Origin: an uncultured Oscillospiraceae bacterium
GTDB taxonomy: Bacteria > Bacillota > Clostridia > Oscillospirales > Oscillospiraceae
Direction: 5' to 3'
DNA length: 64,000 nucleotides
Assembly: GCA_947632175.1 (NCBI GenBank)
Contig: CANROC010000013.1
Coordinates: forward strand, 1-64,000
Below, one piece after another: positions 18,866 through 59,312 of this stretch. Made by a program: the position numbers and the translations under genes. The number at the start of each line of letters is the position of its first letter. Position 1 is the stretch's first letter. Below the pieces are notes generated by a model, which saw only the letters and a list, made by a program, of their open reading frames with translations, searched no databases and was not told where the DNA came from.

Positions 18866-19309
18866 ATGGCAAAATACGACATCAGTACATTCACCTGGTA
18901 CGACCAGGAACCCAAGAGGCAGGAGATGAGGATCGGCGTGTCCGATTCCTGTGGACTCCGGTTTAACGCCGCGCTTCAGAGGCAGCTGCCGGAGCGGTTC
19001 CAGCTCTGCGTCTCACCGGACAAGCGGGTGATGTGCATCGTGGAGTCGGAGGAGGGCACCATCACTCTGAGAAAGAACGGCAGCAGGAAGCTTCCGAAGC
19101 TTCAGCGGGACATAGAGGACGCCGGCGTGATCCTTCCGGCGCGGTATGTTTTTTACGCCGAGGACGGGATGCTGTTCGGGGAGTTGAGGGCGCCGAAGCC
19201 CTCGAAGCCCGGGACCTCCAAGCGCAAGAAGGCAGCCAGGTCACGGAGGATCAGCAAGTCCCAGGAAAAGTACATTCTGGAGGGCCTGAACCATGGGAAG
19301 CTCTGTTGA
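18866..19309 (+). CDS. hypothetical protein, beta-rich N-terminus and basic tail
   Basis: 147 residues with a strong ribosome-binding site (TAGGAGG). Residues ~18-110 alternate short strands (LRFNAALQRQL, RVMCIVESEEGTITLRKNG, VILPARYVFYAEDGMLFGEL) in a pattern loosely like AbrB/MraZ-type beta folds, though no family is assigned. Residues ~110-140 are Lys/Arg/Ser-rich (PSKPGTSKRKKAARSRRISK), suggesting nucleic-acid contact. Overlaps the following sigma-like gene by 17 bp, so the two are coupled. Function unknown. Confidence 0.65.
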   Translation: MAKYDISTFTWYDQEPKRQEMRIGVSDSCGLRFNAALQRQLPERFQLCVSPDKRVMCIVESEEGTITLRKNGSRKLPKLQRDIEDAGVILPARYVFYAEDGMLFGELRAPKPSKPGTSKRKKAARSRRISKSQEKYILEGLNHGKLC

Positions 19310-19817
19310 CACTGCCGAGGCCCGCATCATGGAGGCGGCTGTTCCCGCCATCCGGAAGCTTTGCGAGGGGAGATGGGAAAAGCTGGAGTATCAGGACAGA
19401 GTCTCCGAGGCCTGCCGGATCTTCTTAGAGGACCTGCGGACCATGCCGCTGAACACCGGGCGTTTCCTGGAGGAGTTCAGAGCTGATTTGGAGGTGAAAA
19501 TGGGAGAGCTCAACCGGCGCGCGCCGTCTCCCCGGTTTGACCACTGCTCCCTGGACGCCGTCTTTTCCGACAAGACCGGTGAAACGTTTGAGGGATACTG
19601 CCTCATCCCCTCAACGCCGACGGATTTTACCGGGAGCGAGGTGGATGAATTTCTGCTGAGTCTTCCGCCCCTGGCCAGAGGGATCCTTACGCTCAGTATG
19701 AGAGGCCACGAGTCGTCCGAGTTGGCGGAGATGTTTGGCATTAGCATCTCCCGAATCGACCAGGAGATGGAGGAAATACGCCGGCTTTACAACCGATGGA
19801 ATGATACTAATATCTAA
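19293..19817 (+). CDS. sigma-70 region 4-like DNA-binding protein
   Basis: 174 residues. The C-terminal ~55 residues (PPLARGILTLSMRGHESSEL, then AEMFGISISRIDQEMEEIRR) are a sigma region 4-type helix-turn-helix; the N-terminal ~110 residues lack a recognisable region 2. It may be a divergent sigma factor or a sigma-like regulator, perhaps phage-derived. The last codons (D-T-N-I-stop) lie inside the left terminal repeat of a MITE-like element, so insertion of that element reshaped the C-terminus. Confidence 0.65.
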   Translation: MGSSVDTAEARIMEAAVPAIRKLCEGRWEKLEYQDRVSEACRIFLEDLRTMPLNTGRFLEEFRADLEVKMGELNRRAPSPRFDHCSLDAVFSDKTGETFEGYCLIPSTPTDFTGSEVDEFLLSLPPLARGILTLSMRGHESSELAEMFGISISRIDQEMEEIRRLYNRWNDTNI

Positions 19818-20094: not shown

Positions 20095-20354
20095 ATACTA
20101 ATATCTAATTAAAACAAGCCATTCGCGACGGTTTTTTTCGCATCGTCGTCGCTCGAGCCGCTTTACCTCGGGCTCCCTTTGGTCGCCCTCAGGCGCTGGC
20201 TCGGCTCCTCCTCTCCCCAGCGGGCTTTGCCCGCCGGGGACCCCCGGTGCGTCAGCCGCCTTGGGAATACATACAGTATTCCCTGCGGCGTCTTCCTTGC
20301 CTGACGCGAAAAATCCTCGCCGCTCGGTGTCTCCTTTTAAATAGATATTAGTAT
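20095..20354. mobile_element. MITE-like element, long form (copy B)
   Basis: 260 bp with the same terminal inverted repeats as copy A and in the same orientation, 130 bp away. It carries the ~95-bp internal module (about 20142-20241) shared with copy C and with the unrelated repeat at 58830-59022. It lies immediately after the end of the 11-gene operon, whose stop codon is 18 bp away, so its hairpins may serve as that operon's terminator. Confidence 0.85.
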
Positions 20355-20371: not shown

Positions 20372-22324
20372 TTACAGTTTTTCGTTTTTCGCCTTGCTGC
20401 CAAGCCGCTGGGGCTTTCCGTGGGGGAGTTGGGCGTTTGCGACGTTGTCCTCCCGATCCCGGACGGCTTTCTCGATCTCTTGAATCACATTCTCGGAATA
20501 CGTGACCTTGTAAGATCGCTTGATAAACGCAACAATCTGCTCCCGTTCCTCATCAGATACCCAGGCCCCTTGGATGCGGGCGGGCTTCGAGGCGCCGATG
20601 GGGGCGAAGAGCATATCGCCGTTGCCCACCAGCTTGTCCGCCGCGCCGCCGGCGTCCAGGATGATCCGGGACTCCAACGAGGAGGCGACCTTCAGCGCGA
20701 TGCGGCTGGGGATGTTGGCCTTCATAAGGCCGGTGATCACGTCCGCCCGGGGGCTCTGCGTGGCGATGACCAAATGTACGCCGGCGGCGCGGCCCATCTG
20801 TGCCACCCGGCAGATGGATTCCTCCACCTCCTTGGCGGCGATCATCATAAGGTCGGCCAGCTCGTCGATGATGATCACGATCTGCGGCATCTTCGGCGTG
20901 TCCGCGTCCAGCTGCTGGTTGTAGCTGGAGATGTCCCTGGCCCCGGCGTCGGAGAAGGTCCGGTAGCGCTTCATCATCTCCACCACCGCCCACTGCAGCG
21001 CCCCGGCGGCCTTCTTGGCCTCCGTCACCACGGGGATCAACAGGTGCGGGATGCCGTTGTAGATCTTGAACTCCACCATCTTCGGGTCCACCATGATGAA
21101 CTTGACCTCCTCCGGCGTGGCCTTATAGAGGAGGCTGAGGATGAGGGAGTTTAAGCACACCGATTTGCCCGAGCCGGTGGTGCCGGCCACCAGGAGGTGG
21201 GGCAGCTTGGAGATATTGCCCACCATCACGTCGCCGGAGATGTTCTTCCCGATGGCGAAGGTGAGCTTGGACTTGGCGTTCGTGAACTCCGGGGCGGTGA
21301 TGATCTCTCGGAGGTAGACGGTGGAGACATTCTTGTTGGGCACCTCGATGCCCACGGTGCTGATGCGGTTGGGGATGGCGGCGATGCGCACGCCGGAAAC
21401 GCCCAGGGCCAGGGCGATGTCGTCGGCCAGGTTCGTGAGCTTGTTGAGCTTCACGCCGATCTCCAGCTCCATCTCGTACCGGGTGATGCTGGGGCCGTGG
21501 ACGATGTTGGAGATGTTCACGTTGATGCCGAAGGACCGCAGACACAGCTCCAGCCGCTCCTTGGTGGCCGTGAGCTCGTCCTGGATGGCGTCATCGTCCG
21601 AAACGACAGGCTCGTCCAAAAAATCGACCGCGGGGAAACGGTAGACAGGTTTTTCCTCCCCCGTGTCCGTAAGATCGTTTTCCCGGTCCTCCCCGGCGGG
21701 TCTGACGGGCTCTTCCGTTTCATGGGAGTCGATGGGCCCCGGCCCCTTTTCGCCTAGCAGGTCAAGGAGAAGCTCACAATGGGGACACGGCCGGAAACGG
21801 CTGGACGTGTGATAACAGTCACAGCTCATGTCTACGAGTTCCCCGTCATGAAAAACAAGTTCCGGATAATGGGTAAAGCCAAAGTCGCATTTCACTTTTC
21901 CCTTGACGGTCCTCATGCCCGGTTCCCAGAGGGTATCGCTTAAAATGACGGCCCTGTCCGGCGAAGCGGCGACTGGCCCCTTTGCATCCGTCAATGGCAT
22001 GGCATTCCCGGAAAACCGCCGGTTCTCCCGCGCATCTGCTTCGATCCTGATCTGCTGATCGCCGTATTCTTCAGCCAGCAAGGCCGCGCAATGGACGCAG
22101 AGCTTCGTACCGTTTTGGCAGTCACACGCAAAGCCTGTCAAGGCGGCCCCGGCCGGGTCAAAACGGACCATCGGGTGATGAACAAAGCCAAAGGCGCCGG
22201 TCACATGGGCACGTAAAGTCACCTGACCGTCCTCTGACGGAACGCGCTCTACTTTTCTTACCTTTCCCTCGCCGGCAAGCGTCTTTCCTGCGTTCCACAT
22301 CCCCGGAGAAATATAAGTTGCCAT
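20372..22324 (-). CDS. FtsK/SpoIIIE-family DNA translocase fused to two SWIM-type zinc fingers
   Basis: 650 residues from ATG 22324. Two N-terminal SWIM-like modules carry CxCx(n)CxH: C67-x-C69...C76-x-H78 and C168-x-C170...C180-x-H182. Each is preceded by a similar G-F-(V/T)-H-(H/Y)-P strand, so they are an internal duplication. An acidic linker (~195-250) follows. From ~255 the FtsK alpha and beta motor domains are present: Walker A GTTGSGKS (381-388), Walker B IVIIIDELADLM (D487/E488), and ATQSPRADVITG. The winged-helix gamma domain that reads KOPS/SRS sites and the membrane-spanning N-terminus of true FtsK/SpoIIIE are both missing. DNA (or RNA) contact would instead come from the zinc fingers. 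Last gene of the 11-gene operon. Confidence 0.88.
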   Translation of the reverse strand: MATYISPGMWNAGKTLAGEGKVRKVERVPSEDGQVTLRAHVTGAFGFVHHPMVRFDPAGAALTGFACDCQNGTKLCVHCAALLAEEYGDQQIRIEADARENRRFSGNAMPLTDAKGPVAASPDRAVILSDTLWEPGMRTVKGKVKCDFGFTHYPELVFHDGELVDMSCDCYHTSSRFRPCPHCELLLDLLGEKGPGPIDSHETEEPVRPAGEDRENDLTDTGEEKPVYRFPAVDFLDEPVVSDDDAIQDELTATKERLELCLRSFGINVNISNIVHGPSITRYEMELEIGVKLNKLTNLADDIALALGVSGVRIAAIPNRISTVGIEVPNKNVSTVYLREIITAPEFTNAKSKLTFAIGKNISGDVMVGNISKLPHLLVAGTTGSGKSVCLNSLILSLLYKATPEEVKFIMVDPKMVEFKIYNGIPHLLIPVVTEAKKAAGALQWAVVEMMKRYRTFSDAGARDISSYNQQLDADTPKMPQIVIIIDELADLMMIAAKEVEESICRVAQMGRAAGVHLVIATQSPRADVITGLMKANIPSRIALKVASSLESRIILDAGGAADKLVGNGDMLFAPIGASKPARIQGAWVSDEEREQIVAFIKRSYKVTYSENVIQEIEKAVRDREDNVANAQLPHGKPQRLGSKAKNEKL

Positions 22325-22366
22325 GCAAAAAACAGTCCTTTCTCCCACGGTGAAGTTTAAGTATTG

Positions 22367-23359
22367 TCAATCAGTGATATCTATCAGCTCCATGTCCTCC
22401 GTAAAAGTCCTATTTTCTTTCTCCGACAAAGCGGCTGCCCTGGCGTCAACACTATTTTCGCTTCGGGATCCACTTATTTGAGAAACGCGGGACGGCTCGC
22501 TAGACTGAACAATCTGTCCTGCCGCGGGTTTTTCAGGCGTCAGCATCTGTACGCAGTCCAGGACCGAGTCCCTGTCACAGTTCAGACGCAGGATCCGTGT
22601 ATCTTCCGCCTGAATGTCTGCGGAAAGTCTGATATATTGGATGAGCAGTGTAAGATCTCCATAGGACATGCCTTCCGTTTTCTCAGCAAGCTCGTCAACA
22701 GTCATATCCTTGAAAACCATTTCGGCCATGAAGGCTTTTTTGGAAACCTGCACATCCCAGCTGATTTTCGATTGAAGAAATTCCTTTCTCTGACGAGCGG
22801 ATGGGAGGCTTGTCCGGACCACAAAAGCGAGGGAGCGGAGGTCGGAGGGCAGGGAGGCTATATTCTCCACATAGCAGACAACAGCCAGCTTCCGCGCTTT
22901 GGCCTCGTTTTCCTCTACATACTTTGCGATCGCCTCCGCAACGACCCGGAGCTGTCCATACCGGTCCATGGCGTCAAAAACCACGATACGGAGCGGAGCG
23001 TTTTCCGCGGTCCTGAAAAGATCGTCTACCCGATCGGCGGCCTCTTCGGCGGTTATGGATTCAGGGAAATCCTTTTCAAGCACCCGCAGGAAAAGGGTAT
23101 TGAATGCGTCAACTCCGTAAAACGCAGGGAGCTCTCCAATCAGCGCGCTGCCTGTCATATGCCGTCCCGAACCGACAGGGCCGGAAAAAATGGTTATGCC
23201 ACGGTTCTCCTGCTCGATTACACTCCATGGACCGCCGCCCGAGAAAAGCCCCATAAGCCGGTGCTTCCAGAAGCTCGTTTCCGGAAGAAGCTCCAGCCTT
23301 TGCGTCCTCAATCTCGCGTGATCGGACAGCCTTTGAAAGTCCCATTGACGATCCGGCAT
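22367..23359 (-). CDS. P-loop NTPase partner of the AAA+ protein (divergent AAA)
   Basis: 330 residues. Residues ~52-65 (IFSGPVGSGRHMTG) are a Walker A-like loop in which the usual GKT/S is replaced by GRH. LRIVVFDAMDRYG (~121-133) is a degenerate Walker B with Asp but no Glu. A helical lid-like region ~215-250 (MSYGDLTLLIQYIRLSADI) resembles AAA+ C-domains. The last ~60 residues are Ser/Glu-rich and disordered. Its start codon overlaps the stop of the upstream AAA+ gene (TGATG), so the two are made together. Possibly a catalytically weak subunit of a mixed AAA+ ring. Confidence 0.65.
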   Translation of the reverse strand: MPDRQWDFQRLSDHARLRTQRLELLPETSFWKHRLMGLFSGGGPWSVIEQENRGITIFSGPVGSGRHMTGSALIGELPAFYGVDAFNTLFLRVLEKDFPESITAEEAADRVDDLFRTAENAPLRIVVFDAMDRYGQLRVVAEAIAKYVEENEAKARKLAVVCYVENIASLPSDLRSLAFVVRTSLPSARQRKEFLQSKISWDVQVSKKAFMAEMVFKDMTVDELAEKTEGMSYGDLTLLIQYIRLSADIQAEDTRILRLNCDRDSVLDCVQMLTPEKPAAGQIVQSSEPSRVSQISGSRSENSVDARAAALSEKENRTFTEDMELIDITD

Positions 23360-24600
23360 CAGGCGTACCTCATTTTGTTTTCAAACTCGTTGAGCGACTT
23401 CTCAATCTCGTCCTTGGGCGCGGGCTTGTATCTTGTCATGGCCTCCTCAAACAACGCCCTGGTAAGACGAAATTCACCGTTTCTGAGGGCTTCCACCGCG
23501 TGATCGCCGGAGGCAAAGTCCGCGACGCCCGTGCGGATGAGCTGCCTGAGATGGTCGGATACCCGGTTGATGTCCCGCTGATTGTACCCCTCCGTGGCGT
23601 CGGCCATCTCCTCCCAGGTGAGGTCGTCTCCCAGCCTTATGATGGAGTCAAACTTCTGGCGGAAGGAGAAAGCGCGCAGCTCCTCATCCGGCAGAGGCAC
23701 CTGCACCAGCTCCACCCGGTCGAGCATGGCGATGTCCACGTTGGACGGGTAGTTGGTGGCTCCGATGAATACCACACTGCGAGCGTCCTTATTGGCACGG
23801 ATCAGATTATTATAGGACGTCAGGAAGGTGGTGGTAAGGGTCATGTTGAAATCGGAGAGATTCGGCATGGACCGGCTTTGGCAAATGCCGTCGATCTCAT
23901 CCATAAAGAGGATGCAGGGGGCGTTTTCCACCGCCTCCGCGAAGGCGCGCTTGACGATCTTGTCCGCTTCCCCGGAGAATTTGCTGTGAATGTCGGCGCT
24001 CTCCAGCTTCATAAATTTATAGCCGTTTTGCATGAGCTCGTGGGCGAACGCCTCGATGATAAAGGTCTTGCCGCATCCCGGAGGGCCGTAGAAAAAGAAA
24101 GATTGCACCGTGGGAATGCCCAGATAGCTGTTGAGCGAATCCAGAGACACATCCCGGACGCAGTTCCTCAGGAGCTCTTTGAGCGTCTCCATGCCTACGA
24201 CCTGGTCAAAACCGTATCCCGGGTCCTCCTGGAACCATCTTGCCACCGTCTCGTCGGGAATGTCGTTTTTCTTGGGATTTGCGCCGGATGGGATTGCCGA
24301 AGCGTTGGGCGCGCGCGTCGCGGGGCTCGCGGCGGGCGCGGGCTTGGGCCTGGCCTCTTCCGGGTTCAGGCTGATCCAGATCTCGTGCATCTTCTGATTG
24401 CACATAGTCTGCTCGCTAAGCCAGTGCTGGGTTTCCGCGCCTATACTCATGGTTGCCAGCTGGCCTGCCTTGGCGGAAGCGTTCTGATAGCACAGGCCCT
24501 CCTCCCTCGACGGGGTCCCGGTTTCTTTCCGGATCTCCTTCGCCTCACGAATGAGGGAGCGGTATTCGTTGTTCAACCGATTGATCTTTTCAATATCCAA
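23359..24600 (-). CDS. Vps4/CDC48-like AAA+ ATPase with helical N-terminal domain
   Basis: 413 residues. Residues 1-80 are three predicted helices (MDIEKINRLNNEYRSLIREA; then SREEGLCYQNASAKAGQLAT and ETQHWLSEQTMCNQKMHEIW), about the size of an MIT-type bundle. A Pro/Ala linker runs 85-112. The AAA+ core has Walker A YGPPGCGKTF (171-180), pore-loop region FMKLESADIHSKFSGE, Walker B CILFMDEIDGI (229-239), sensor 1 VVFIGATNYP and arginine finger MLDRVE. This Asp-Glu-Ile-Asp/Ala-Thr-Asn-x-Pro set is the classic-clade AAA signature of CDC48, katanin and Vps4, used to thread or disassemble protein complexes. The MIT comparison is inference from length and helicity. Confidence 0.85.
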   Translation of the reverse strand: MDIEKINRLNNEYRSLIREAKEIRKETGTPSREEGLCYQNASAKAGQLATMSIGAETQHWLSEQTMCNQKMHEIWISLNPEEARPKPAPAASPATRAPNASAIPSGANPKKNDIPDETVARWFQEDPGYGFDQVVGMETLKELLRNCVRDVSLDSLNSYLGIPTVQSFFFYGPPGCGKTFIIEAFAHELMQNGYKFMKLESADIHSKFSGEADKIVKRAFAEAVENAPCILFMDEIDGICQSRSMPNLSDFNMTLTTTFLTSYNNLIRANKDARSVVFIGATNYPSNVDIAMLDRVELVQVPLPDEELRAFSFRQKFDSIIRLGDDLTWEEMADATEGYNQRDINRVSDHLRQLIRTGVADFASGDHAVEALRNGEFRLTRALFEEAMTRYKPAPKDEIEKSLNEFENKMRYA

Positions 24601-24615
24601 GGCGCACCTCGCTTT

Positions 24616-25254
24616 TCATCGCTTGTCCACATTCTTACGAAGAATATCGTCAATGTATTTCGCGTCGGCCTCAGGATCGCCGCTGGTAAAATCATAAGCA
24701 CCGACAGAGCCCGATGCTGTTCCCGTAAGCTTTTTCTCCATGCATTCCTCCATGGAATAGCCTTGGATCAGGTACTCCACAAATTGCTCGTCTACGAGGC
24801 CCGCCCTCTCAATGAAGCTCTCCGTCTCGCCTGTATCGTCAAAGTCGAAGTCCATCTGCGATTTAAGGTTTTTCTTTGACAGGGAGGCGTTGGGGTCGAG
24901 CTTTCCAAGCTGACGGACCACAAAGCCCAGCTTTTTCTTGGCGTCGGCCAAATCGCTGACCTGCGCGACACTCTTTAACGCTATTTCCGCCTCTTCAATG
25001 GCGACGAGTCCCACAGCCGCGTCGTGGATGCGGCTTTTCTGACTGGCGTCCCCGATCCGCTTGTCCCTCCGCTCCAGCGCGTTCAGCCGCTCAACGCGGA
25101 TGGTCTTCTCAAAGGAGTCCTTGCAGGAGCCGAGGATCGCGTAATATTCGGCGATCGACATGTTCTCCTGGGCCTTTTTGTCGATCTCCTTGCGGAACTT
25201 TTCCTTGCGGACCTGCTCATCGCTTTTTCCCAGAAGCTTATTGATGATACCCAT
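24616..25254 (-). CDS. unknown helical protein with C-terminal D-x-I-L-R tail
   Basis: 212 residues, no signal or membrane span. Residues 1-60 are basic and amphipathic (MGIINKLLGKSDEQVRKEKF). Residues ~65-150 are long helices (SRIHDAAVGLVAIEEAEIAL; DAKKKLGFVVRQLGKLD). Residues ~155-212 are acidic and end YIDDILRKNVDKR. Small size, basic N-terminal and acidic C-terminal halves and a terminal charged helix recall ESCRT-III/Snf7 proteins, the substrates of Vps4, but I see no diagnostic sequence match. It lies 15 bp upstream of the AAA+ start. Its tail motif is shared with the protein at 26573-28249. Confidence 0.55.
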   Translation of the reverse strand: MGIINKLLGKSDEQVRKEKFRKEIDKKAQENMSIAEYYAILGSCKDSFEKTIRVERLNALERRDKRIGDASQKSRIHDAAVGLVAIEEAEIALKSVAQVSDLADAKKKLGFVVRQLGKLDPNASLSKKNLKSQMDFDFDDTGETESFIERAGLVDEQFVEYLIQGYSMEECMEKKLTGTASGSVGAYDFTSGDPEADAKYIDDILRKNVDKR

Positions 25255-25269
25255 AACGCCTTGCCTCCC

Positions 25270-26511
25270 TTATGAATTCAGATTATAGTTCTCTTCGCTG
25301 AGCGCGTCGGTCTCCTCATTGCTGTTGGCCGGGACATTTTCGGCAAAGTTAATGTCCTCGTTTTCAGATGTGTTCTCCTGTAAAGCGTTTACAATTTGAG
25401 TGAGGATCTGCTGATTTTCAAGCTCCTTCTGGCGGGCCCTGTCCATCTTGCTCTTGAGCAGCTCTGCCTCCTGCAGATCCCTGCGCGAGATGTTGTCTTC
25501 CGGCATAATGAGCTTATCTATTGTTTCGGAGATGTGCGCCATGGTGTTTGTGCTTGCTTCTCCGCGCAGAACGCCCTCCATCTTTCTGTCAAAATCCGCT
25601 TCAATATCCTGCACTGCGTCAGCCTCGGTGAGCATCCTGTTCATGCCGGAGACGATCTCATCCATCACATCCTTGAACTCCGCGATGATGTCCTGGTCGT
25701 AGAGCGGCGGCCTCTCGTCAAGTGCCGTGCGGTATCCCTTAGCCATGGAGAGTTGGCTTTCGTAATCTATTCTCCTGGCGTACTGCCTGGAACGCAATCT
25801 GTTGAGCAGCTTCGCCAGATCCCCGGTCTGCTTTATAAATATGGCAAGCTCCTGGTCCTCTTTGCTGAGCTTATCCGGAGTGTTGGTGTTGGCTTTGATC
25901 CTGGCGATGGAAGCATTGCCCTCCACGGTAGAGGTAAGCTCCTTGAAGCGTTGTTTTTTGGGGGTATATTCCGCCTCCAGCTGACGGATCGTCTCATTGG
26001 CCTGCGACATGGATTTCCTTGTTTCATCGATCTTGCCGTACAACACGATAAGGGAGGAATAATTTTCCATATAGTGAACGCGCTTTTCAATGATCTGCTC
26101 CCGATCAGCTTGCCTTTGTGGCGGGACGTTGTCGCGGAGGAGAAGCAGGCCGGTACTGATCGCGTTGATGCACCACTCGGCCTGATCGACATATCCGTAC
26201 TCCGCGGCCGTTTTCAACGTATCCGCCGCGTTCAGCAGGATGTTGTCAAGGGCGGAAATATCGTCAAAAATAGTGGGGGAGTTCTGGAGCTTCACGATCA
26301 GCGCCTTTACGCTGGTGCGCATTTCGTCCAGCTTTTCATCCGTCATGCCCTCTTCGTTTCTCAACAGAGAAAAATCCACGGTTTTGAGCGCGGCGACGAT
26401 CTTCTCCCCTGTGTCCCGGTTTTGTTCCGCGATCTTGCCGGGAGACGCCGTGGTCTGCCGTCCGGATAAAGCGTCAAAAAATGACTTCAAGCCGCCTGAA
26501 TTTTTTGCCAT
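25270..26511 (-). CDS. coiled-coil protein of the 11-gene operon
   Basis: 413 residues from ATG 26511, which has an AAGGAGGA ribosome-binding site. Almost entirely helical; strong heptad character around ~150-215 (YMENYSSLIVLYGKIDETRK; ANETIRQLEAEYTPKKQRFK) and ~300-375. The last ~40 residues are Asn/Glu-rich and disordered. No signal peptide, membrane span or recognised enzyme motif. Spaced 15 bp before the 212-residue gene. Probably a scaffold or adaptor between the membrane components and the AAA+ proteins; that role is inferred from context. Confidence 0.6.
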   Translation of the reverse strand: MAKNSGGLKSFFDALSGRQTTASPGKIAEQNRDTGEKIVAALKTVDFSLLRNEEGMTDEKLDEMRTSVKALIVKLQNSPTIFDDISALDNILLNAADTLKTAAEYGYVDQAEWCINAISTGLLLLRDNVPPQRQADREQIIEKRVHYMENYSSLIVLYGKIDETRKSMSQANETIRQLEAEYTPKKQRFKELTSTVEGNASIARIKANTNTPDKLSKEDQELAIFIKQTGDLAKLLNRLRSRQYARRIDYESQLSMAKGYRTALDERPPLYDQDIIAEFKDVMDEIVSGMNRMLTEADAVQDIEADFDRKMEGVLRGEASTNTMAHISETIDKLIMPEDNISRRDLQEAELLKSKMDRARQKELENQQILTQIVNALQENTSENEDINFAENVPANSNEETDALSEENYNLNS

Positions 26512-26572
26512 GGTCAAGTCCTCCTTATTGCATATGCTCTTTTTCGGGTGAGTGGCGTAAATATAGGATCGG

Positions 26573-28249
26573 TCAATGCCGGTTCAGGTACTTTTCCCTC
26601 AGGATCGCGTCAGCCTCCTCCACGGACATCCCCGCATCGTCCGCATACAGAGGAGCGCCGGCTTGGTTGTTTTGGCCCGTTGCCTGCTCCAGCTCCAAAA
26701 TCATTTTCTGCATCTGGCCGGTGTCCGCCTTTTTTGCCGTTTGAGGGCTTATTTTCAAGAAAGCGTCCATCGTTTTCAACATCTTGTCGCATTCGTTGAT
26801 TCTTTTCGAATGGATCATATACATACCGGTTTCCGCAGCAGAAACGGACGACGGGTCATAGCGGACGCGCTGTAGAGCGGTTCGTATTTCAAACGATCTG
26901 TGAGACTCGTCCAGATATTTCTCATACAGCTCAAATCGCAGGTCGTAGTCAAAGTCATCGGAGTCGCTGTACAGATATTTCCCGCCATAGAGCATCGCGT
27001 TCATCGCCCGACAGAGGGTGTTCCAGTCCCCCCACTCTTTTGCCCGGGTGAAATGGGCATGGTATTTATCCATGCTCCGCAGCCGTTTTTCCATAATGGG
27101 CCGGTTGAAAGGTGCCAGGAGCGAGGAGCGCATACCGTCCCACTCGTTTTTTGTGGGAATACTGACAGCGGGATCGATCCTCAGATCCTTTATCCGTTCC
27201 GGCAGAAGCTCCTCCGGCCACTGAAGGCGCGCGACAGCCAATAAAACGGGATCCGCAATGGTCACGTGGCACCGCTCCTCCACCTCCTGCCTGTTCAGGG
27301 AGTAGAGGAACTTAGGCTCCAAGTCCTTACTGGTTTTTTCCACGCGCTCGTGAAAGGCTTTCCATCCGCTCTCACTGCACAGGCTCTCGTAAAGGGCGGC
27401 GTACACGTCTTCACGCTGACGCTCCCGGAAAAAGAGCTGGGCCCACATATTGCGAAAGGCGAGGGGGAGCCCCTGGGGGAGTTCGGACAGGTACCACCAG
27501 TTATAGAGGAAATTTGTGTATTTCAGCAGCCGGTCATCGGGCCAATTCTCACATCTGTGGAACCTGACGCACCGCATCAGGGACTTAAGACGCGCGTATG
27601 TCACGGCGCCCAGCTCTACGAAACGGTCTCCCAGGCGCCTTTTCAGCGCCCCCAGGAGCGCCACGGCCTCATCAGACAGCAGAAAGTCCCTCAATTCTCC
27701 GCAAAGCGCCCTGCCGGAGGGGGCCCGGTACGCGAAGACACCGGAGCGGTCAGTCAACAGCCTTTGCTGTTCCTCCCGCAGATGCATGGGGGAGAGGAGA
27801 AGGATCGAGTGGCCGTTGCGGGAAAGGTCGATGAGCGCATCCAGATACGGCTTTCCCTTGGCGCCGGAGTATAGGGCCGCGAAAGCCTCCAGCGGGAAAA
27901 TGACCGCTGTCGGATGGCCGGAGGGTTTTCGCAGAACATCGGCGATCCATTTCCTGAGAGGTCCGGCGTCCATCTGGACCGTGTCGGCGTCCGGGCGCAT
28001 CTCTGGCCCTCTTGACAGAAGAGACCGGCGGTGCGCGTTATATGCCCGCATGGAATCGCCATCGATGGCCCTGACCGTGAAGGCCCCGTTGGCGGCCCTC
28101 AGAAAGAAGATCCGGTCGTATTGGCTCTCCCGAAGCTCCATCCACAAATAGGCGGTGGTATCCGGCTGGAGCGTGCTGTCGAGGAAAAACCTGTCCCGTT
28201 CCCCGGCAAACACAAAATACAGCTTTTCATGGGCAGAAAACAGGGGCAC
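26573..28249 (-). CDS. large unknown protein with C-terminal D-x-I-L-R tail
   Basis: 558 residues, starting at GTG 28249 behind CCGGAGGTGAGGAGC; a longer frame back to 28330 would overlap the upstream gene and lacks a ribosome-binding site. The N-terminal ~220 residues alternate strands and helices and may be a degenerate P-loop-like domain (HPTAVIFPLEAFAALY; NGHSILLLSPMHLREEQQRL) without Walker motifs. The middle is helical (RLKSLMRCVRFHRCENWPDD). The end reads ADAILREKYLNRH, matching the DDILRKNVDKR end of the 212-residue protein. Not recognised; the shared tail suggests both dock on the same partner. Confidence 0.55.
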   Translation of the reverse strand: MPLFSAHEKLYFVFAGERDRFFLDSTLQPDTTAYLWMELRESQYDRIFFLRAANGAFTVRAIDGDSMRAYNAHRRSLLSRGPEMRPDADTVQMDAGPLRKWIADVLRKPSGHPTAVIFPLEAFAALYSGAKGKPYLDALIDLSRNGHSILLLSPMHLREEQQRLLTDRSGVFAYRAPSGRALCGELRDFLLSDEAVALLGALKRRLGDRFVELGAVTYARLKSLMRCVRFHRCENWPDDRLLKYTNFLYNWWYLSELPQGLPLAFRNMWAQLFFRERQREDVYAALYESLCSESGWKAFHERVEKTSKDLEPKFLYSLNRQEVEERCHVTIADPVLLAVARLQWPEELLPERIKDLRIDPAVSIPTKNEWDGMRSSLLAPFNRPIMEKRLRSMDKYHAHFTRAKEWGDWNTLCRAMNAMLYGGKYLYSDSDDFDYDLRFELYEKYLDESHRSFEIRTALQRVRYDPSSVSAAETGMYMIHSKRINECDKMLKTMDAFLKISPQTAKKADTGQMQKMILELEQATGQNNQAGAPLYADDAGMSVEEADAILREKYLNRH

Positions 28250-28286
28250 GCTCCTCACCTCCGGTCCTTCGGCGTATTCGAGCCCG

Positions 28287-28784
28287 TTAACCGATCGCGA
28301 CGGATATGGGCTCCGACTCGGCGAGCCCATAGCTGTTTTTCAGAAGCACCCGAACATGGAGGGCCTCCTCCAGACGAAAGCCAATCCGCTGGAGGGACGC
28401 CTCTTTCAAATTGCGTATCACGATGTCCTTCTGGTCCTGGCAGGCGCCTTTTTTGATCACGACGCTCACGGGCAATGTCTGCACGTCGGGGATCCTGGCG
28501 AGGGCCTCCGGGTACCAGACCTCTCCGTTTTCCAGCTCTTTCCCTGTGGCGAAATAGACCGGCGCGCTGTGATCTTCCACGATTTTTCCGCCGGCCTCCT
28601 TCCACCTGTACAGGATGATGCCGATCTCCATGTCGTCCAGATATTGCGACCGGTGGATCTTGGCCAGCGCGTTGATTTGAGCGCCCGCCTCCGCCGTGTC
28701 GTCACCGAGGATCTCGTAAACCGGGAAATGACAATAGGGGCAGGTCGATCCGCTCACTTCTCTGCCGCAGGATACACAGTTCAT
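28287..28784 (-). CDS. zinc-ribbon protein with beta-sandwich-like domain
   Basis: 165 residues. The N-terminus carries a four-cysteine ribbon, C3-x2-C6...C15-x2-C18 (CVSCGREVSGSTCPYC). Residues ~40-165 are strand-rich (DMEIGIILYRWKEAGGKIVE; QTLPVSVVIKKGA; EEALHVRVLLKNSYGLAESE), consistent with an Ig-like or Hsp70-substrate-type beta-sandwich. Its ATG overlaps the stop of the coiled-coil gene by 4 bp. Similar cysteine ribbons recur in the two membrane proteins of the operon. Possibly a client or adaptor of the Hsp70-like ATPase; not a recognised family. Confidence 0.55.
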   Translation of the reverse strand: MNCVSCGREVSGSTCPYCHFPVYEILGDDTAEAGAQINALAKIHRSQYLDDMEIGIILYRWKEAGGKIVEDHSAPVYFATGKELENGEVWYPEALARIPDVQTLPVSVVIKKGACQDQKDIVIRNLKEASLQRIGFRLEEALHVRVLLKNSYGLAESEPISVAIG

Positions 28785-30148
28785 TTGATCTCCTCCAAGG
28801 TCTTATTCGTCATGCGCACGTATTGCTTGATCGCCTGCTCGACTTCCGACAGGATACTGTCCGCGCTCCGGAGAAGCTCGTCTACGCGGCCTGCCGCCGT
28901 GTATTCCTCGATTTGAGAGATGCCTGTCAGATAGGCCGCCTGCCGGTCCAACGCCTGCTGGATCTGCTTGAGCGCAGCGAGGCGGTTTTTCCGGGCCTTC
29001 AGCTCCTCCTCGCGGCGCGGCAGGGTCCCAAGGTCCTTTTCACAGCGCTCCAGCGCCTCATCGACTGATTTGGCCCGTTCCTTTAGGTCCGTCAGCGCCT
29101 TCTCCTTTTCCGAAAGGGCCGTCTCCTGCGCATCCACATCACGCTGCATCTGGGTGAGCCGGGCTTCCAGATCGGCGCATCTGCCCTTGCGGTCCTCCAA
29201 CTGAGCCGCGCGGGCCTCCAGAGTCTTCGCAAGTCCGTCCTCGCTTTTTCCCTTGAGCTGCGCTTCAAGCTGGGCGATCTGTTCCCGCAGATTTTTGACC
29301 TTTTCGTCCATATCCGCCGCCTGGCCGTAAGCGCTGTTGAGCCTGTCCGTCAAGTCCAGCCACTCGGCCTCTTTGTCCTTCTTCTGCCGGGTGATCCTGG
29401 CTGTCTCCTCCAGGAGCTTCGTCATGTCCGCCTTGACGCCCTCAACGGCCTCGTTTTGCTGTCTCACCTCAGCCTGCAAGGCGTTTTTTTGGCGGAGCTT
29501 ATCCGCGTATATCATCTTCAGCGCCGGGAGCTCCGAATCCTGCAGCTCCTTAAGGTCCCCCTCCAGCGCGCCGATCTTTTCCCTGATCTCCGCGCTCTGG
29601 GCGCGCACCATATCCCGCTGCGCCGTCAGATCGTCGATCCTCCGCGCGTCCTCCAGCAGTGCAACGGCGGCCCGCAGAGACTTCAGATCCCGGGTATTCG
29701 CCTGGACAGCATCGACCTGCTCCTCCAGACGCGTCTTCTCCGCGACCAGCTCCTCGAATTCCCGCTTCTGCCGGATCTGCCCGTCCACGGAGGCCCGCAT
29801 CCGGTCCAGCTCCTCATTCAGTTCCCGGATCTTCCGCTCATAGGGCTCCTGCTGGGCCAGGGCGTCTGCCAACCGCGCCTGCGCGGTCTGACACTCCTCC
29901 AACCGCCTGGCGCCGTCCAACGGCTGCCGGTTGGCGTCATAGATCCTGGAATACAGCTTTACCGTCCAGATCAGAAGGTCCATGACCCTGTCGGGGTCAC
30001 GGATGGCGCACGCCTCCTCCATGGACTGCCCGGTCTCCTTCTTGATATCCTTTCCCACATTTTGAAGGATCCCGAGCACATCGTCAATGGCAAGGCAGTT
30101 GACGGACCGGAATTTCTCCAGGTCCTCGCTCAATAGCTTCAGCTTCAC
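28781..30148 (-). CDS. long coiled-coil protein next to the Hsp70-like ATPase
   Basis: 455 residues from GTG 30148 with an AGGAGG ribosome-binding site. Residues 1-85 are globular and helical (VNCLAIDDVLGILQNVGKDI; PDRVMDLLIWTVKLYSRIYD). Residues ~90-405 are uninterrupted coiled coil rich in Leu, Glu, Gln and Arg. Residues ~410-455 are a short helical end (IEEYTAAGRVDELLRSADSI). It is 23 bp downstream of the Hsp70-like gene. A coiled-coil partner next to an Hsp70 recalls GrpE-type exchange factors, but no GrpE sequence is seen; a structural rod is equally likely. Confidence 0.6.
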   Translation of the reverse strand: MKLKLLSEDLEKFRSVNCLAIDDVLGILQNVGKDIKKETGQSMEEACAIRDPDRVMDLLIWTVKLYSRIYDANRQPLDGARRLEECQTAQARLADALAQQEPYERKIRELNEELDRMRASVDGQIRQKREFEELVAEKTRLEEQVDAVQANTRDLKSLRAAVALLEDARRIDDLTAQRDMVRAQSAEIREKIGALEGDLKELQDSELPALKMIYADKLRQKNALQAEVRQQNEAVEGVKADMTKLLEETARITRQKKDKEAEWLDLTDRLNSAYGQAADMDEKVKNLREQIAQLEAQLKGKSEDGLAKTLEARAAQLEDRKGRCADLEARLTQMQRDVDAQETALSEKEKALTDLKERAKSVDEALERCEKDLGTLPRREEELKARKNRLAALKQIQQALDRQAAYLTGISQIEEYTAAGRVDELLRSADSILSEVEQAIKQYVRMTNKTLEEIK

Positions 30149-30171
30149 CGGTCGTGCCTCCTAGCTGGCAA

Positions 30172-31989
30172 TCATACCTCTGTCAACTCAAACATATCCT
30201 GATAGCTCTTCAAGACGATGCGTTCCGTAGTGTTGGTCCTCACTGAGCGTATCAGCAGCGTCACGATCTCAGAATTGTCCATCTGAAAGCCCAGATTGTG
30301 CTCCAGACCAAGTCCGCTGGAATCGGGATACGCGGCCGCGTATTCCTGGAAGAGCTTTTCATAGGCGGCCTTGATCAGGTTGGCCAGCTCCGGCTTGATC
30401 ACCAGCTCGTTTTTTTGCTGGCCTTTCATGTCATAGCCGATCAACAGCCTTTGCACGCGCCCGTTGGCATTGATGAACTTCTTTGGCCCGTCCGGACCGC
30501 TGATCCAATAGTCCGTGCCCTCGTCGATCTCCTGCCGGTACTTAATGGCGAAATTGCAGATGGGTGTGTTGTCCGCAAGGCGGGAGATGATCCCTATGGC
30601 GTAAGGAGCCGTGTGCCTGATGGAGATGACCTTGTCCGCCAACAGCGCCGCGCCCATGGCAACGGCATACTCCCGGCTTTCTCCCAGATCGTAAGCGAAT
30701 CTCTTGTCACCGGTGGATGAAAAATCAAAAAACTCCTGGATCTGGTTCTGCACAAACATGAATTTCCCAAATCCCCCCACCACGACCACGTGGAAGCTGT
30801 CGCTGTTGGAGCTTTGGTAGTCTATGCCCGCCTCGTCCATATACTCCGTCATGTCCCGAAGACACTGGTCGAGCTTGCCGCGGATCATCTTGTCGTAGGC
30901 CAGGATGAGGTGGGAGAAAGTCACGTTCACCTTGGCCTTCCCGTATTTGATGGTCGTGAAGCAGTCGTGGTTGTCCTTCATCCGGGAAATGTCGTCAATG
31001 CAGTCCTGGATGGCGTTATAGAGCCTGAAATTGACCTCCGCGCTCCCGTTCCGGTTGGAACTGACGGCTACCTGGCTTTTTATCTTGCGCTCAAGGTTGT
31101 TGTAGGCTCTTCGAAAGTCCGGATCCCTGGGACTGACAGCGCCGGGATCCTCCACCCCGGCCTCCCGGCAATCCGCGACGGCAAGGCGTACGATCTCCTC
31201 CATGTAGGCGATACCGGCATCGCCGATCTTCCCCGGATGGTTTTCCCCAACGCCGGTACGGTTCTTCACCTCGATCTCCACCGAGTTTCCGCCCTTTCCC
31301 AGGCTCACACTTGTCAGGGTCAGGTCCAGCGTGCCTCCGCCGTAGTCGATGATCAGGACGTTCCCGGTCATTCTTTTCCCGGTGAGCTTATGATAGTAGT
31401 GGGCGAAATACGCGCTGGCGGCGGTGGGCTCGCTGACGACCTCCACCTCTTTCACGCCGTCTATCCGCTTGCAGATGTCCTTCAAAATAAACCGGCCGTC
31501 CAGCATTCCCCGGTTTATGGACTCCTTCGTGGTCCAGATCTCGGGAGCGCATATGACCAACTGATCGATGACGCTCTCGTTGGAGTTGGATAATATCTTA
31601 TTGATCTGCTGGTCAAGAAACCTCTCGGTGATCAGCCAAGGCGTGTATTGGTCGGTGTAGCCGCGCTTTCTCAGTATCTCCGCGTTCGTCTCCGTCAGGA
31701 GCATCTTGAAAGCCTCGAAGCTGACGGTATCGGCATCCTCCAACACCTGGGCGCGGGCCTCGTGTCCGGTGATGATGTTGTCGTCCTCATCGAGGCACGC
31801 GATGGATGGGACGGCCTCGGATTCGCTGTGCGTGGGTTTGCACAGCTCCACCGTGGAGGAGGCGGCGTTGTATTTTGCGAAGCTTGAATATGTACTGCCA
31901 AAATCGACCCCAAGGTTCATCCTGATCACCATACCGGGGCGGTACCCGGTAACCGTCTGAAAAAGCAGCCGCGTATTTTGCCTTTTCAC
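30172..31989 (-). CDS. Hsp70/actin-fold ATPase (DnaK-like, without usual substrate domain)
   Basis: 605 residues if the GTG at 31989, overlapping the previous stop as GTGA, is used. The fold itself begins 23 residues in, at MNLGVDFGSTYSSFA (phosphate-1 loop), so ATG 31920 is an alternative. Phosphate-2 loop LIIDYGGGTLDLTLTSV; adenosine motif VVVVGGFGKFMFVQNQI. E-P-T-A-A-A-SAYF lies before phosphate-2, as in Hsp70 proteins. The C-terminal ~190 residues do not match the DnaK peptide-binding domain and end in a strand-rich segment. Probably an ATP-driven chaperone or assembly switch of the operon's machine, rather than the housekeeping DnaK. Confidence 0.85.
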   Translation of the reverse strand: MKRQNTRLLFQTVTGYRPGMVIRMNLGVDFGSTYSSFAKYNAASSTVELCKPTHSESEAVPSIACLDEDDNIITGHEARAQVLEDADTVSFEAFKMLLTETNAEILRKRGYTDQYTPWLITERFLDQQINKILSNSNESVIDQLVICAPEIWTTKESINRGMLDGRFILKDICKRIDGVKEVEVVSEPTAASAYFAHYYHKLTGKRMTGNVLIIDYGGGTLDLTLTSVSLGKGGNSVEIEVKNRTGVGENHPGKIGDAGIAYMEEIVRLAVADCREAGVEDPGAVSPRDPDFRRAYNNLERKIKSQVAVSSNRNGSAEVNFRLYNAIQDCIDDISRMKDNHDCFTTIKYGKAKVNVTFSHLILAYDKMIRGKLDQCLRDMTEYMDEAGIDYQSSNSDSFHVVVVGGFGKFMFVQNQIQEFFDFSSTGDKRFAYDLGESREYAVAMGAALLADKVISIRHTAPYAIGIISRLADNTPICNFAIKYRQEIDEGTDYWISGPDGPKKFINANGRVQRLLIGYDMKGQQKNELVIKPELANLIKAAYEKLFQEYAAAYPDSSGLGLEHNLGFQMDNSEIVTLLIRSVRTNTTERIVLKSYQDMFELTEV

Positions 31990-32753
31990 GCTGAGCCCTT
32001 GTCAAACTCAGGCGGCAATCCCATGACATGGGACAAGTCAATAAAGTAAATCAATACGAGGACGATCCCCATACCCGTCTGGAGCGACCCGGAGGAGACC
32101 GCTCCGCCCAGGAGGAGCGCCAAATGCAGGAGTCCCCATAGATAATGGCCCTCATAAAAGGCGTGCGTACCGAAAGCCCAACCAAAAAGGTTAAACAAAA
32201 GTAAAGATGCCAGCATCTTCTTTTTCCTGCCGGTCCCGGCGGGATCTTTTGGCAGAACGATCCACTGGCCGGTATTTTGCTTTTTCCAGACCCACTCGTC
32301 CGGCTTCATTTTTTTCAGCGTTTTTTTCAACAGGACAAAAAATAAAACCAGTAATCCCGCCGTTACGGCGATAGCGGCGAGCATACCGTCCGGCGGGCGC
32401 TGCTTGGATGTGGAAACGCTCTCGACGGACGCCATGATAAACGCCATGAAAAACATGACGGCGATAGAAAACAGCAGCGCGTAAAGCCCTTTCCGAAAGG
32501 TCAGCCTCCCGATCTCCGCCTGGCTCAAAAGGCTGACGGGCGGGTTATCCGCCGGCTTCGGAATGGGCTCCGCGGTCTTTCCGATATCGTTCTTGACGCC
32601 GCCGGCCTTTTGCAGGGCGCGGGCCTTCAGGTCCCGGGGGATTCCGGCGCACAGGGTGGGGAACCGCTCGTAATCACAGGTCGCGTCAAACCCGCAGACC
32701 GGGCACACCGGCCGGTCGCCGTTCTCCGTTTTGCACACGGGACACTGCCCCAC
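31986..32753 (-). CDS. zinc-ribbon, TM2-like membrane protein (paralogue 1)
   Basis: 255 residues from GTG 32753 with a GGAGGG ribosome-binding site. A cytoplasmic zinc ribbon C4-x2-C7...C17-x2-C20 (CPVC...CPVCG) is followed by CDYERFPTL and PRDLKARA. Four hydrophobic segments follow at ~90-110, 127-147, 183-203 and 210-240. The third and fourth resemble a TM2 hairpin (KKKMLASLLLFNLFGWAFGT then HAFYEGHYLW). The end is LPPEFDKG. The same head and tail motifs occur in the next upstream gene, so they are paralogues. Likely the membrane anchor of the system. Confidence 0.72.
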   Translation of the reverse strand: MGQCPVCKTENGDRPVCPVCGFDATCDYERFPTLCAGIPRDLKARALQKAGGVKNDIGKTAEPIPKPADNPPVSLLSQAEIGRLTFRKGLYALLFSIAVMFFMAFIMASVESVSTSKQRPPDGMLAAIAVTAGLLVLFFVLLKKTLKKMKPDEWVWKKQNTGQWIVLPKDPAGTGRKKKMLASLLLFNLFGWAFGTHAFYEGHYLWGLLHLALLLGGAVSSGSLQTGMGIVLVLIYFIDLSHVMGLPPEFDKGSA

Positions 32754-32801
32754 AACGATCCCTCCCTTTCCGGCGGAAAAAACCGCCCCGTTTCAAAAAA
32801 C

Positions 32802-32830
32802 AGTATATCAAATCGGCCCGAAAGATGCAA
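32802..32830 (-). promoter_or_regulatory. internal sigma-A promoter before the second membrane-protein gene
   Basis: On the minus strand TTGCAT and TATACT are separated by exactly 17 bp in the 96-bp gap between the two paralogous membrane-protein genes. It would allow the downstream ten genes to be expressed without the first. Confidence 0.6.
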
Positions 32831-32849
32831 GTTTTTCGGGAAAAACCTG

Positions 32850-33713
32850 TCAGTATTCGCCCTTGTCAAATTCAGGCGGCAGGCGTAGGATGCGTGCCAG
32901 GGGCACGATAAAGGCGAAGATGAGCCAAGCCCAAATTATCACGATCATTACGATAATCGTCAGGTTGGATATGCTCTTTGAAGCTTCAGTTGCGTTCATG
33001 ATCCGATAAATAATGGCAAATCCACCGCAGGAGATCAGACACCTTATGACAAGCTTCCATTTTCCTTTGGAAAATCCGTCCAGATACAGGATGTCCAGGC
33101 CAAGCATCCATCCGAAGTAGAACAACAGAAGCGCCGTCAGCATCTTCTTCTCCTGCCCGCTGCCAGGACCATCCTTTTTCAAAACGATCCACTTGCCGTC
33201 GTTTTGCTTTTTCCAGACCCACTCATCCGGCCTCATTTTTTTCACAGACCTTGTTAATAAGATGAAGCACAGCAAGCATAACAATGCCAGAAAAAGCACG
33301 GTTCGCATAGGGCGTTCAGGATCTAAACGTGACAAAACGGTTGACAACAGGGCGGGAAGAGTCATTTTCTGAAGGACCAACCCTGTATAAACGATCAAAG
33401 AAGCAAAAAAAGAACCAAACGCCAATGCGACCGCGAAAGCTCCTCTGTTGAAGATGCGGTTCTCGATCTCTTTCTGGCTCAAAAGGCTGACGGGGGATCC
33501 GTTCGCCTTTTTCGGTTTTCCCGCAGGCCTCCCGGCCTCCCCGGCGTTAGCCTTGGCACCTTCGAGTTTCCGCGCGGCGCGGGCCTTCAGGTCGCGGGGT
33601 ACATCGGCCCCTAAGGTCGGGAACCGCTGGTAGTCACATGTGATGTCAAACCCGCAGACCGGACACACCGGGTCATCGCCGGTTTCAGATCTGCACACGG
33701 GACATTGCCGCAT
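32850..33713 (-). CDS. zinc-ribbon, TM2-like membrane protein (paralogue 2)
   Basis: 287 residues. Same plan as its neighbour: N-terminal ribbon CPVC...CPVCGFDITCDY, RFPTL and PRDLKARA motifs, a ~30-residue basic linker, SLLSQKEIE, several membrane spans (~95-115, 140-160, 190-210, 220-240, 248-272), the conserved KKMRPDEWVWKKQN loop and the LPPEFDKG end. First gene of the operon. The duplication suggests a heteromeric membrane platform. Ligand unknown. Confidence 0.72.
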   Translation of the reverse strand: MRQCPVCRSETGDDPVCPVCGFDITCDYQRFPTLGADVPRDLKARAARKLEGAKANAGEAGRPAGKPKKANGSPVSLLSQKEIENRIFNRGAFAVALAFGSFFASLIVYTGLVLQKMTLPALLSTVLSRLDPERPMRTVLFLALLCLLCFILLTRSVKKMRPDEWVWKKQNDGKWIVLKKDGPGSGQEKKMLTALLLFYFGWMLGLDILYLDGFSKGKWKLVIRCLISCGGFAIIYRIMNATEASKSISNLTIIVMIVIIWAWLIFAFIVPLARILRLPPEFDKGEY

Positions 33714-33825
33714 AGTCCTCTCTCCTTGCGTTCAGACTGCCCATTTTGCGTCGGCCCTCGGCGGACGATCGCCGCGTCACCGCGGCTTAAAAAGCGCTTC
33801 GCTTTGGCGCGGCGGGAATAAAAAT

Positions 33826-33854
33826 ATTATAGCAATCCAATAAGAAAATTGCAA
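33826..33854 (-). promoter_or_regulatory. main sigma-A promoter of the 11-gene operon
   Basis: On the minus strand TTGCAA and a perfect TATAAT are separated by exactly 17 bp, giving a leader of about 105 nt before the first start codon. The leader contains a GCGAAGCGCTTTTT hairpin that might attenuate transcription. Confidence 0.75.
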
Positions 33855-58641: not shown

Positions 58642-58728
58642 GCCGGTGTGGCGGAACTGGCAGACGCCCGGGACTTAAAATCCCGTGATGGCAACATCGT
58701 ACCGGTTCGATCCCGGTCACCGGCACCA
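58642..58728 (+). tRNA. tRNA-Leu (TAA anticodon)
   Basis: 87 nt including encoded CCA. Acceptor GCCGGTG/CACCGGC, anticodon stem CGGGA/TCCCG with loop containing TAA, long type II variable arm, T-arm CCGG-TTCGATC-CCGG. Type II structure and TAA identify leucine. Confidence 0.92.
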
Positions 58729-59052: not shown

Positions 59053-59312
59053 ATACTAATATCTAATTAAAATAAGACATTCGCGCCGGTCTTTTTCGCA
59101 TCGTCGTCGCTGAACACGCTTTGCTTCGGGCTCCCTTTGGTCGCCCTCAGGCGCTGTGTTCGCTCCTCCTCTCCCCGGCGGGCTTTGCCCGCCGGGGACC
59201 CCCGGTGCGTCAGCCGCCTTGGGAATACACAAAGTATTCCCTGCGGCGTCTTCCTTGCCTGACGCGAAAAATCCTCGCCGCTCGGTGTCTTCTTTTAAAT
59301 AGATATTAGTAT
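59053..59312. mobile_element. MITE-like element, long form (copy C)
   Basis: 260 bp with the same terminal inverted repeats as copies A and B, and very close in sequence to B outside the module stems. It lies between the family-2 repeat and the DUF4160 promoter. Confidence 0.85.

Follow-up and report, generated by a model that had tools for sequence, protein, structure and literature searches.

A conserved bacterial operon combining an Hsp70-like ATPase, a Vps4-like AAA+ ATPase and a small protein with a predicted ESCRT-III-like fold

The window analyzed here, 64,000 nt from an uncultured Oscillospiraceae bacterium (contig CANROC010000013.1 of assembly GCA_947632175.1, positions 1 to 64,000), contains an operon of eleven minus-strand open reading frames (ORFs), g1 to g11, that runs from 33713 to 20372 with intergenic spacings of -44 to +96 bp (Table 1). 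The initial annotation had described eleven closely spaced, same-strand genes behind a TTGCAA-17-TATAAT promoter and closed by a miniature inverted-repeat transposable element (MITE), and these observations held: all eleven genes were present in the ORF list of the window, the promoter-like motif had one match in the 64 kb against a shuffling expectation of 0, and a MITE-like element adjoined the 3' end. Two ORFs opened upstream of their likely starts, that of g3 at 31989 (likely ATG at 31920, MNLGVDFGSTY) and that of g6 at 28330 (likely GTG at 28249); if g6 starts at this GTG, the 44-bp overlap between g5 and g6 is gone. The operon was confirmed as genuine and as part of a conserved system, for which we found no name.

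Table 1. Features of the operon and its borders in the window.
Feature	Position (strand)	Description	Basis	Orthologue in the eight other loci
Promoter-like site	33826..33854 (-)	Sigma-70-type, TTGCAA-N17-TATAAT, upstream of g1		
g1	32850..33713 (-)	N-terminal zinc-ribbon tag and ~5 predicted membrane spans, 287 aa, client-type	Hydropathy	
g2	31986..32753 (-)	N-terminal zinc-ribbon tag and ~3 predicted membrane spans, 255 aa, client-type	Hydropathy	
g3	30172..31920 (-)	Hsp70/actin-fold ATPase	Pfam HSP70, 36.6 bits	8/8
g4	28781..30148 (-)	Long coiled-coil protein, 455 aa		8/8
g5	28287..28784 (-)	Zinc-ribbon protein, 165 aa		7/8
g6	26573..28249 (-)	Conserved, no known domain		8/8
g7	25270..26517 (-)	Conserved, no known domain		8/8
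g8	24616..25254 (-)	Small helical protein, predicted ESCRT-III-like (CdvB-like) fold	AlphaFold2 model, Foldseek, VIA	8/8
g9	23359..24600 (-)	AAA+ ATPase, Vps4-like architecture	Pfam AAA, 94.6 bits	
g10	22367..23359 (-)	Degenerate AAA protein	Divergent AAA, Pfam, 29 bits	7/8
g11	20372..22348 (-)	Two SWIM-like zinc motifs and FtsK alpha/beta motor, no gamma domain	Pfam FtsK, 222.5 bits	
MITE-like element	20095..20354	27-nt inverted ends (85% complementary), adjoining the operon 3' end		

Relatives of the operon were few. Among 5.8 billion proteins searched, g8 returned 20 clusters, the N-terminal domain of g9 24 clusters and g7 eight, the window's own included. With the g8 alignment as query, a scan of 84,980 genomes by short peptide patterns, which distant relatives can escape, yielded two loci, L025 from an Oscillospiraceae metagenome-assembled genome (MAG) and L026 from Hominifimenecus microfluidus (Lachnospiraceae). 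The g9 N-domain profile matched 5 of the 394 genomes of the window's order and 5 of the 397 genomes from the family of L026. Weak g9 N-domain matches in two genomes, one from each set (G048 and G1105, 21-22 bits), were not counted as operon-bearing, the operon genes being absent from the regions fetched (L038, L046).

We compared nine loci, namely the window, L025, L026, three from the window's own family (L035, L036, L037), and L043, L044 and L045. Iterated profile searches, in which the best match per locus was kept and E-values were computed with the matches already inside the profile, found g3, g4, g6, g7, g8 and g9 together in 9/9 loci. Both g5 and g10 were present in 8/9; g5 was missing from L037, and g10 was scored absent in L044, where the best match was the g9 of that locus and no further AAA-sized ORF lay downstream (this g9 row was also present in the g10 sets used for the tree and the charge control below). 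Five loci (type A: the window, L025, L026, L035, L036) shared the order g3 to g10 followed by a gene for a SWIM-ATPase. In a second arrangement (type B: L037, L043, L044, L045) g6 led. The SWIM gene was not seen beside the operons of L043, L044 and L045; in L037, where 480 bp of contig remain past g10, it was not judgeable. A small protein of ~157 aa, by eye a four-span membrane protein, occurred in L037, L044 and L045. The same gene set, with its order mostly kept, was thus found again in other genomes, and the cluster goes beyond chance. The co-occurrence check that the initial annotation had proposed across genomes came out positive for the Hsp70-like g3, the coiled-coil g4 and the AAA+ g9 (9/9 each); the SWIM gene was seen in 5/9. 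Its view of a single system without a name was upheld, with co-occurring core genes and a gene set matched by no named system in the libraries used (Pfam and PADLOC among them). The Hsp70-like assignment of g3 was likewise confirmed by Pfam, and the zinc ribbon of g5 is a by-eye call for which Pfam DZR reached just E 0.12.

In a concatenated tree, the window paired with L026, from a different family, and L037, from the window's family, grouped with L044 and L045. Because the operon tree conflicts with family membership, horizontal transfer is the best explanation. We rejected a conserved genus trait: in a g9 search of 60 genomes, the 59 other than G000 scored no more than 67.7 bits, the level of generic AAA proteins, and the type-A g8 profile, by which type-B g8 may be missed, matched 1/391 genomes of the class, G000 itself. 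A viral origin was also rejected, with no g8 relatives in viral contigs and no g3 matches in phages, as was a plasmid origin, since g9 matched 970 plasmid records but none of them over 80% of its own length, and those listed had ~30% identity.

The best clue comes from the pair g8 and g9. A g8-type gene stood ahead of g9 in 9/9 loci, either directly or, in L037 and L044, with a second g8 paralogue between them. The g8 protein has a basic N-terminal part, an acidic C-terminal part and an isolated C-terminal helix (residues 194-211). After VIA re-alignment of the 1000 top PDB chains that Foldseek returned for the AlphaFold2 (AF2) model, the four best entries were archaeal proteins of the endosomal sorting complex required for transport III (ESCRT-III), CdvB and CdvB2. 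Residues 1-120 were net positive and the remainder net negative in 24/24 g8 sequences; in the control, typed CHMPs were split likewise, and among the other operon families only g6 often was (6/9). Foldseek against viral models gave nothing significant; a protein of the Snf7 family came in at rank 13 (E 1.1).

g9 has one classic-clade AAA module with intact Walker A and B motifs, a pore-loop-like KFSGEADK and a C-terminal helix. In the AF2 model, its N-domain consists of three helices (3-27, 32-51, 55-78) and then a disordered linker (84-112), a layout as expected for an MIT domain, and the g9 profile aligned in one stretch through part of the Vps4B MIT region. In an AAA tree that held no Cdc48, Vps4 and two relatives' AAA proteins clustered with g9, and the FtsH-like proteins, so named by eye, stood outside this group; CDC48 outscored CdvC as a g9 match. 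The label "Vps4-like AAA+" was a fair one, and the ESCRT-III-like fold predicted for the gene before g9 had escaped the initial annotation; an ESCRT-III-like gene in the neighborhood is criterion 2 for Vps4/CdvC in Makarova et al. (PMC11188069; this and the other papers cited are drawn on in excerpt). Downstream of g9, g10 retains the frame of an AAA protein but carries GPVGSGRH in place of GPPGxGKT and VVFDAMD in place of a Walker B with DE. Across the g10 set, read by eye, the Walker A Thr/Ser was replaced in 8/8, the Lys in 3/8, and the Walker B acid pair was broken in 5/8. Because these motifs are degenerate, g10 is likely a weakened or non-hydrolysing partner.

An ESCRT-III or MIT assignment was not confirmed at the sequence level. 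The structural scores for g8 were not significant alone, and Foldseek's own rank 1 for the model was not CdvB2. The Pfam models Snf7 and PspA_IM30 gave no g8 match, and no match to MIT was found for the g9 N-domain by sequence, either in Pfam or in hhalign N-domain comparisons. A Snf7 search across the whole genome also returned nothing. At such distance, the profile test for g8 is weak, because known CdvB itself reaches only E 0.0096 against the human CHMP profile, and as a yardstick for the N-domain, human MIT against archaeal CdvC reached just E 0.58. From its modelled fold, g8 likely works like ESCRT-III, which is a statement about behavior and not proof of membership in the superfamily. 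A rival explanation is a cytoplasmic assembly or quality-control system, in which the Hsp70-like ATPase and a Cdc48/Vps4-like AAA+ ring would unfold or disassemble complexes of repeat proteins bearing the zinc-ribbon tag described below, and g8 would be a mere helical adaptor with no membrane or filament role. We consider this rather unlikely given the ESCRT-III proteins at the top of the VIA ranking, the basic/acidic charge split of g8, its second paralogue in two loci and the small four-span membrane protein (by eye) in three.

The last gene of the operon, g11, contains two SWIM-like motifs (CxCx(n)CxH) joined to an FtsK motor, so the initial label of a SWIM-FtsK motor stood as regards the Pfam FtsK match and the motifs, and fell short in that Pfam returned no SWIM match for g11. 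In L025 and L026, the SWIM-like half was fused to a HerA-like motor (Pfam), and L035 and L036 encoded the same protein type by reading. The motor of g11 shared 91% identity over 418 residues, and 93% identity at the DNA level, with the resident FtsK, a complete 896-aa protein in the same genome (L002 1163-3853). HerA and FtsK motors are members of one superfamily (HerA-FtsK). g11 is a clear case of a local swap in one genome, in which the SWIM-like motifs were kept and the HerA-like motor was replaced by the motor of the resident ftsK. We therefore rejected FtsK as a core part, and its earlier standing as a defining part of the system fell with the HerA-like motors of the relatives. The membrane-bound DNA-processing or DNA-transfer machine driven by SWIM-FtsK that had been proposed could draw on this motor, on the relatives' HerA-like motor and on the SWIM-like zinc motifs. 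It is nonetheless very improbable: the motor gene was not seen beside three of the nine operons and was not judgeable at one more, the motor in the window is nearly that of the resident ftsK, and among the family matches listed for the operon, none pointed to a relaxase, a nuclease or a pilus gene.

Beyond g11, the MITE-like element had a second copy at 59053-59312, 94% identical and ~39 kb away, which lay ~325 bp from a tRNA-Leu gene (58642-58728). Two overlapping plus-strand genes were found beside the operon 3' end (18866-19817), the second with a weak match to sigma-70 region 4. On the other side, positions 36873-44102 held a repeat-rich ORF of 2409 aa that by eye resembles a surface protein, its repeats being of InlB type and its C-terminus SLH-like.

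At the promoter-proximal end, the TM2-like anchors and zinc modules noted at first were substantiated in part, with five and three spans by hydropathy in g1 and g2, respectively, and no match returned for Pfam TM2. The reading of g1 and g2 as parts of the machine was not supported. Both genes lie outside the conserved core and are two members of a varied set of proteins that share a zinc-ribbon tag, an N-terminal module of ~40 residues with invariant C4, C7, C17, C20, D23 and Y28 in nine proteins, g1 and g2 among them. The tag also begins RCC1 proteins adjoining L025, L026, L035, L036 and L043 and a MORN-type protein adjoining L045. At a cut-off of 45 bits, all candidates in 45 genomes (nine with the operon and 36 without a g9 orthologue in the g9 and g9 N-domain searches, hence termed operon-less) gave 29 strong matches, all in operon genomes and in 7/9 of these. 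The profile was built from nine operon-linked proteins, whose matches are by construction; the other 20/29 strong matches are not. The 36 operon-less genomes had no strong match, and weak ones (20.5-23.2 bits) occurred in 4/36; the five weak matches left out were in G001, G019, G053, G809 and G716 (C81). In wider searches, in which for many genomes part of the first-look candidates was scored (e.g., 17/51), the tag was found among scored candidates in 3/394 genomes of the window's order, all operon-bearing and out of four operon-bearing genomes known there, and in 2/309 genomes of a Lachnospiraceae set, both operon-bearing. The Fisher test for the link between tag and operon in the 394 genomes gave p 4e-7, an optimistic value with a profile trained on some of the same proteins.

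Contigs that do not carry the operon encoded tagged proteins as well. Their bodies comprised RCC1 (Pfam) and, by eye, Sel1, BspA-type leucine-rich repeats, cell-wall-type repeats and membrane spans; at least one span was predicted in 8 of the 24 proteins scanned, one of them marginal, in a scan that covered fewer than all 29 strong matches. Two operon genomes, G728 and G1172, had no tag match. An RCC1-type repeat protein (by eye) lay beside the operon of G728 (L037 10795-11991). Directly behind the operon of L044 (11375-19222) were tandem genes for a degenerate Ser/Thr-kinase-like domain with BspA-type leucine-rich repeats (by eye), which, in a genome without tag matches, are possibly a second kind of client set.

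Varied repeat-protein partners of this sort would also suit an immune or conflict system dependent on nucleoside triphosphates (NTPs), along the lines of the ternary and GTPase-centred systems in Kaur et al. 2020 (PMC7159879), with the repeat proteins as sensors and the AAA+, Hsp70 and HerA ATPases as a switch. The rare, patchy distribution, the conflict between tree and family membership and the relatives' HerA-like motor fit this explanation, and zinc ribbons, transmembrane (TM) parts and HSP70 are likewise reported for those systems in the excerpts. Against it, the family matches listed for the core included no effector domain (nuclease, protease, pore or NADase), the flanks of L035, L036, L043 and the window had a metabolic or housekeeping look by eye, and PADLOC, run on 10/11 proteins with g5 omitted, identified no named anti-phage system and gave only generic matches for single proteins (IetA/TRIP13, SspH/HerA and coiled-coil). 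We judge a conflict system to be decidedly unlikely, and neither of the roles in defense or DNA transfer raised at first gained positive evidence.

Our preferred explanation, which is possible and held tentatively, is that g3 to g10 form one ATP-driven, Hsp70-assisted machine of ESCRT-III/Vps4 type that sorts or remodels zinc-ribbon-tagged clients. In this scheme, g8 would polymerise like ESCRT-III into a filament, and the g9 ring ATPase, together with g10, an AAA protein whose activity is probably reduced or lost, would turn the filament over by extracting g8 subunits in the manner of Vps4. The C-terminal g8 helix may be the binding site of the g9 N-domain, by analogy with MIT and the MIT-interacting motif (MIM). 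The Hsp70-type ATPase g3 and the coiled-coil g4 would assist the machine, and g6 and g7 would be scaffold proteins. The tag may be an address read by the machine, perhaps via g5 as a candidate zinc-ribbon reader. Because some tagged proteins consist of membrane spans followed by outside-type repeats, the work probably takes place at the membrane, where vesicle formation or repair would be candidate events. The fullest version, in which some bacteria would possess complete, horizontally passed ESCRT-III/Vps4-type cargo sorting, with the zinc ribbon as a ubiquitin-like address tag that hands membrane and repeat proteins to an Hsp70-assisted polymer for budding or remodelling, we regard as unlikely. 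A conserved bacterial operon that unites an ESCRT-III-like protein and a Vps4-like ATPase with marked clients would give a sharper picture of the bacterial relatives of ESCRT and a small model in which to study the origin of ESCRT-type cargo selection. Even without the ESCRT interpretation, a tag on unlike proteins that was clearly matched, among the genomes searched, only alongside one rare ATPase operon is a testable bacterial client code.

ESCRT homologues are described as identifiable in archaea and not in bacteria (PMC11188069), and bacteria as having the ESCRT-III relatives PspA and Vipp1 but no clear Vps4 (PMC7615534). g8 resembles PspA/Vipp1 in its predicted helical fold of the same superfamily and its bacterial setting, but differs in that the PspA_IM30 and Snf7 models fail to match it. 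A 2024 survey of phage shock protein (PSP) systems in mSystems (PMC11237479) reports bacterial Vps4-like AAA+ proteins, PspA/Snf7-clade proteins whose longer operons include AAA+ ATPases, interpreted there as ATP-dependent membrane remodelling, and transferred bacterial Vps4 cases in which snf7 is displaced by a protein with tetratricopeptide repeats and six TM segments (TPR+6TM). As a general idea, the pairing of an ESCRT-III-like protein and an AAA+ ATPase in bacteria thus has a published precedent. Our operon shares with the survey systems the bacterial Vps4-like AAA+, and an inactive AAA copy is found there in a two-AAA protein; it differs in that Snf7 and PspA models do not detect g8, and the excerpts do not mention Hsp70, proteins like g6 and g7 or the zinc-ribbon tag. 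With the NTP-dependent conflict systems (MoxR-vWA ternary and DO-GTPase/tubulin/HSP70; PMC7159879), it shares a modular NTPase core that includes HSP70 and comes with zinc ribbons, TM parts and varied partners, but in the matches listed none of the operon proteins attained the Pfam cut-off for a MoxR, vWA, GTPase or tubulin model.

The archaeal Cdv/ESCRT systems (CdvB-CdvC, with the Main, Halo_FHA and Meth_adaptin groups of Makarova et al., PMC11188069) likewise place a Vps4-type ATPase gene beside a gene of CdvB-like fold, here a predicted one, and have extra zinc-ribbon, coiled-coil and repeat-domain proteins. We liken our machine to these archaeal systems, which are proposed there to sort cargo and likewise have zinc ribbons and repeat domains. 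The differences are that the host here is bacterial, that sequence comparison detects no link of g8 or g9 to ESCRT-III or MIT, that partners of the winged-helix, adaptin or CdvA kind were not recognised in this operon, and that the text makes no mention of Hsp70 and the excerpts note no counterpart for g6, g7 or g10. No description of such a gene set was found in the open-licence PMC literature. The proposed mechanism is of a known kind, the gene content is unlike anything in the libraries used, and three things are new: the nine-locus operon with Hsp70, g6, g7, g8 and g10, g8 as a divergent family in itself, and a zinc-ribbon tag on the clients.

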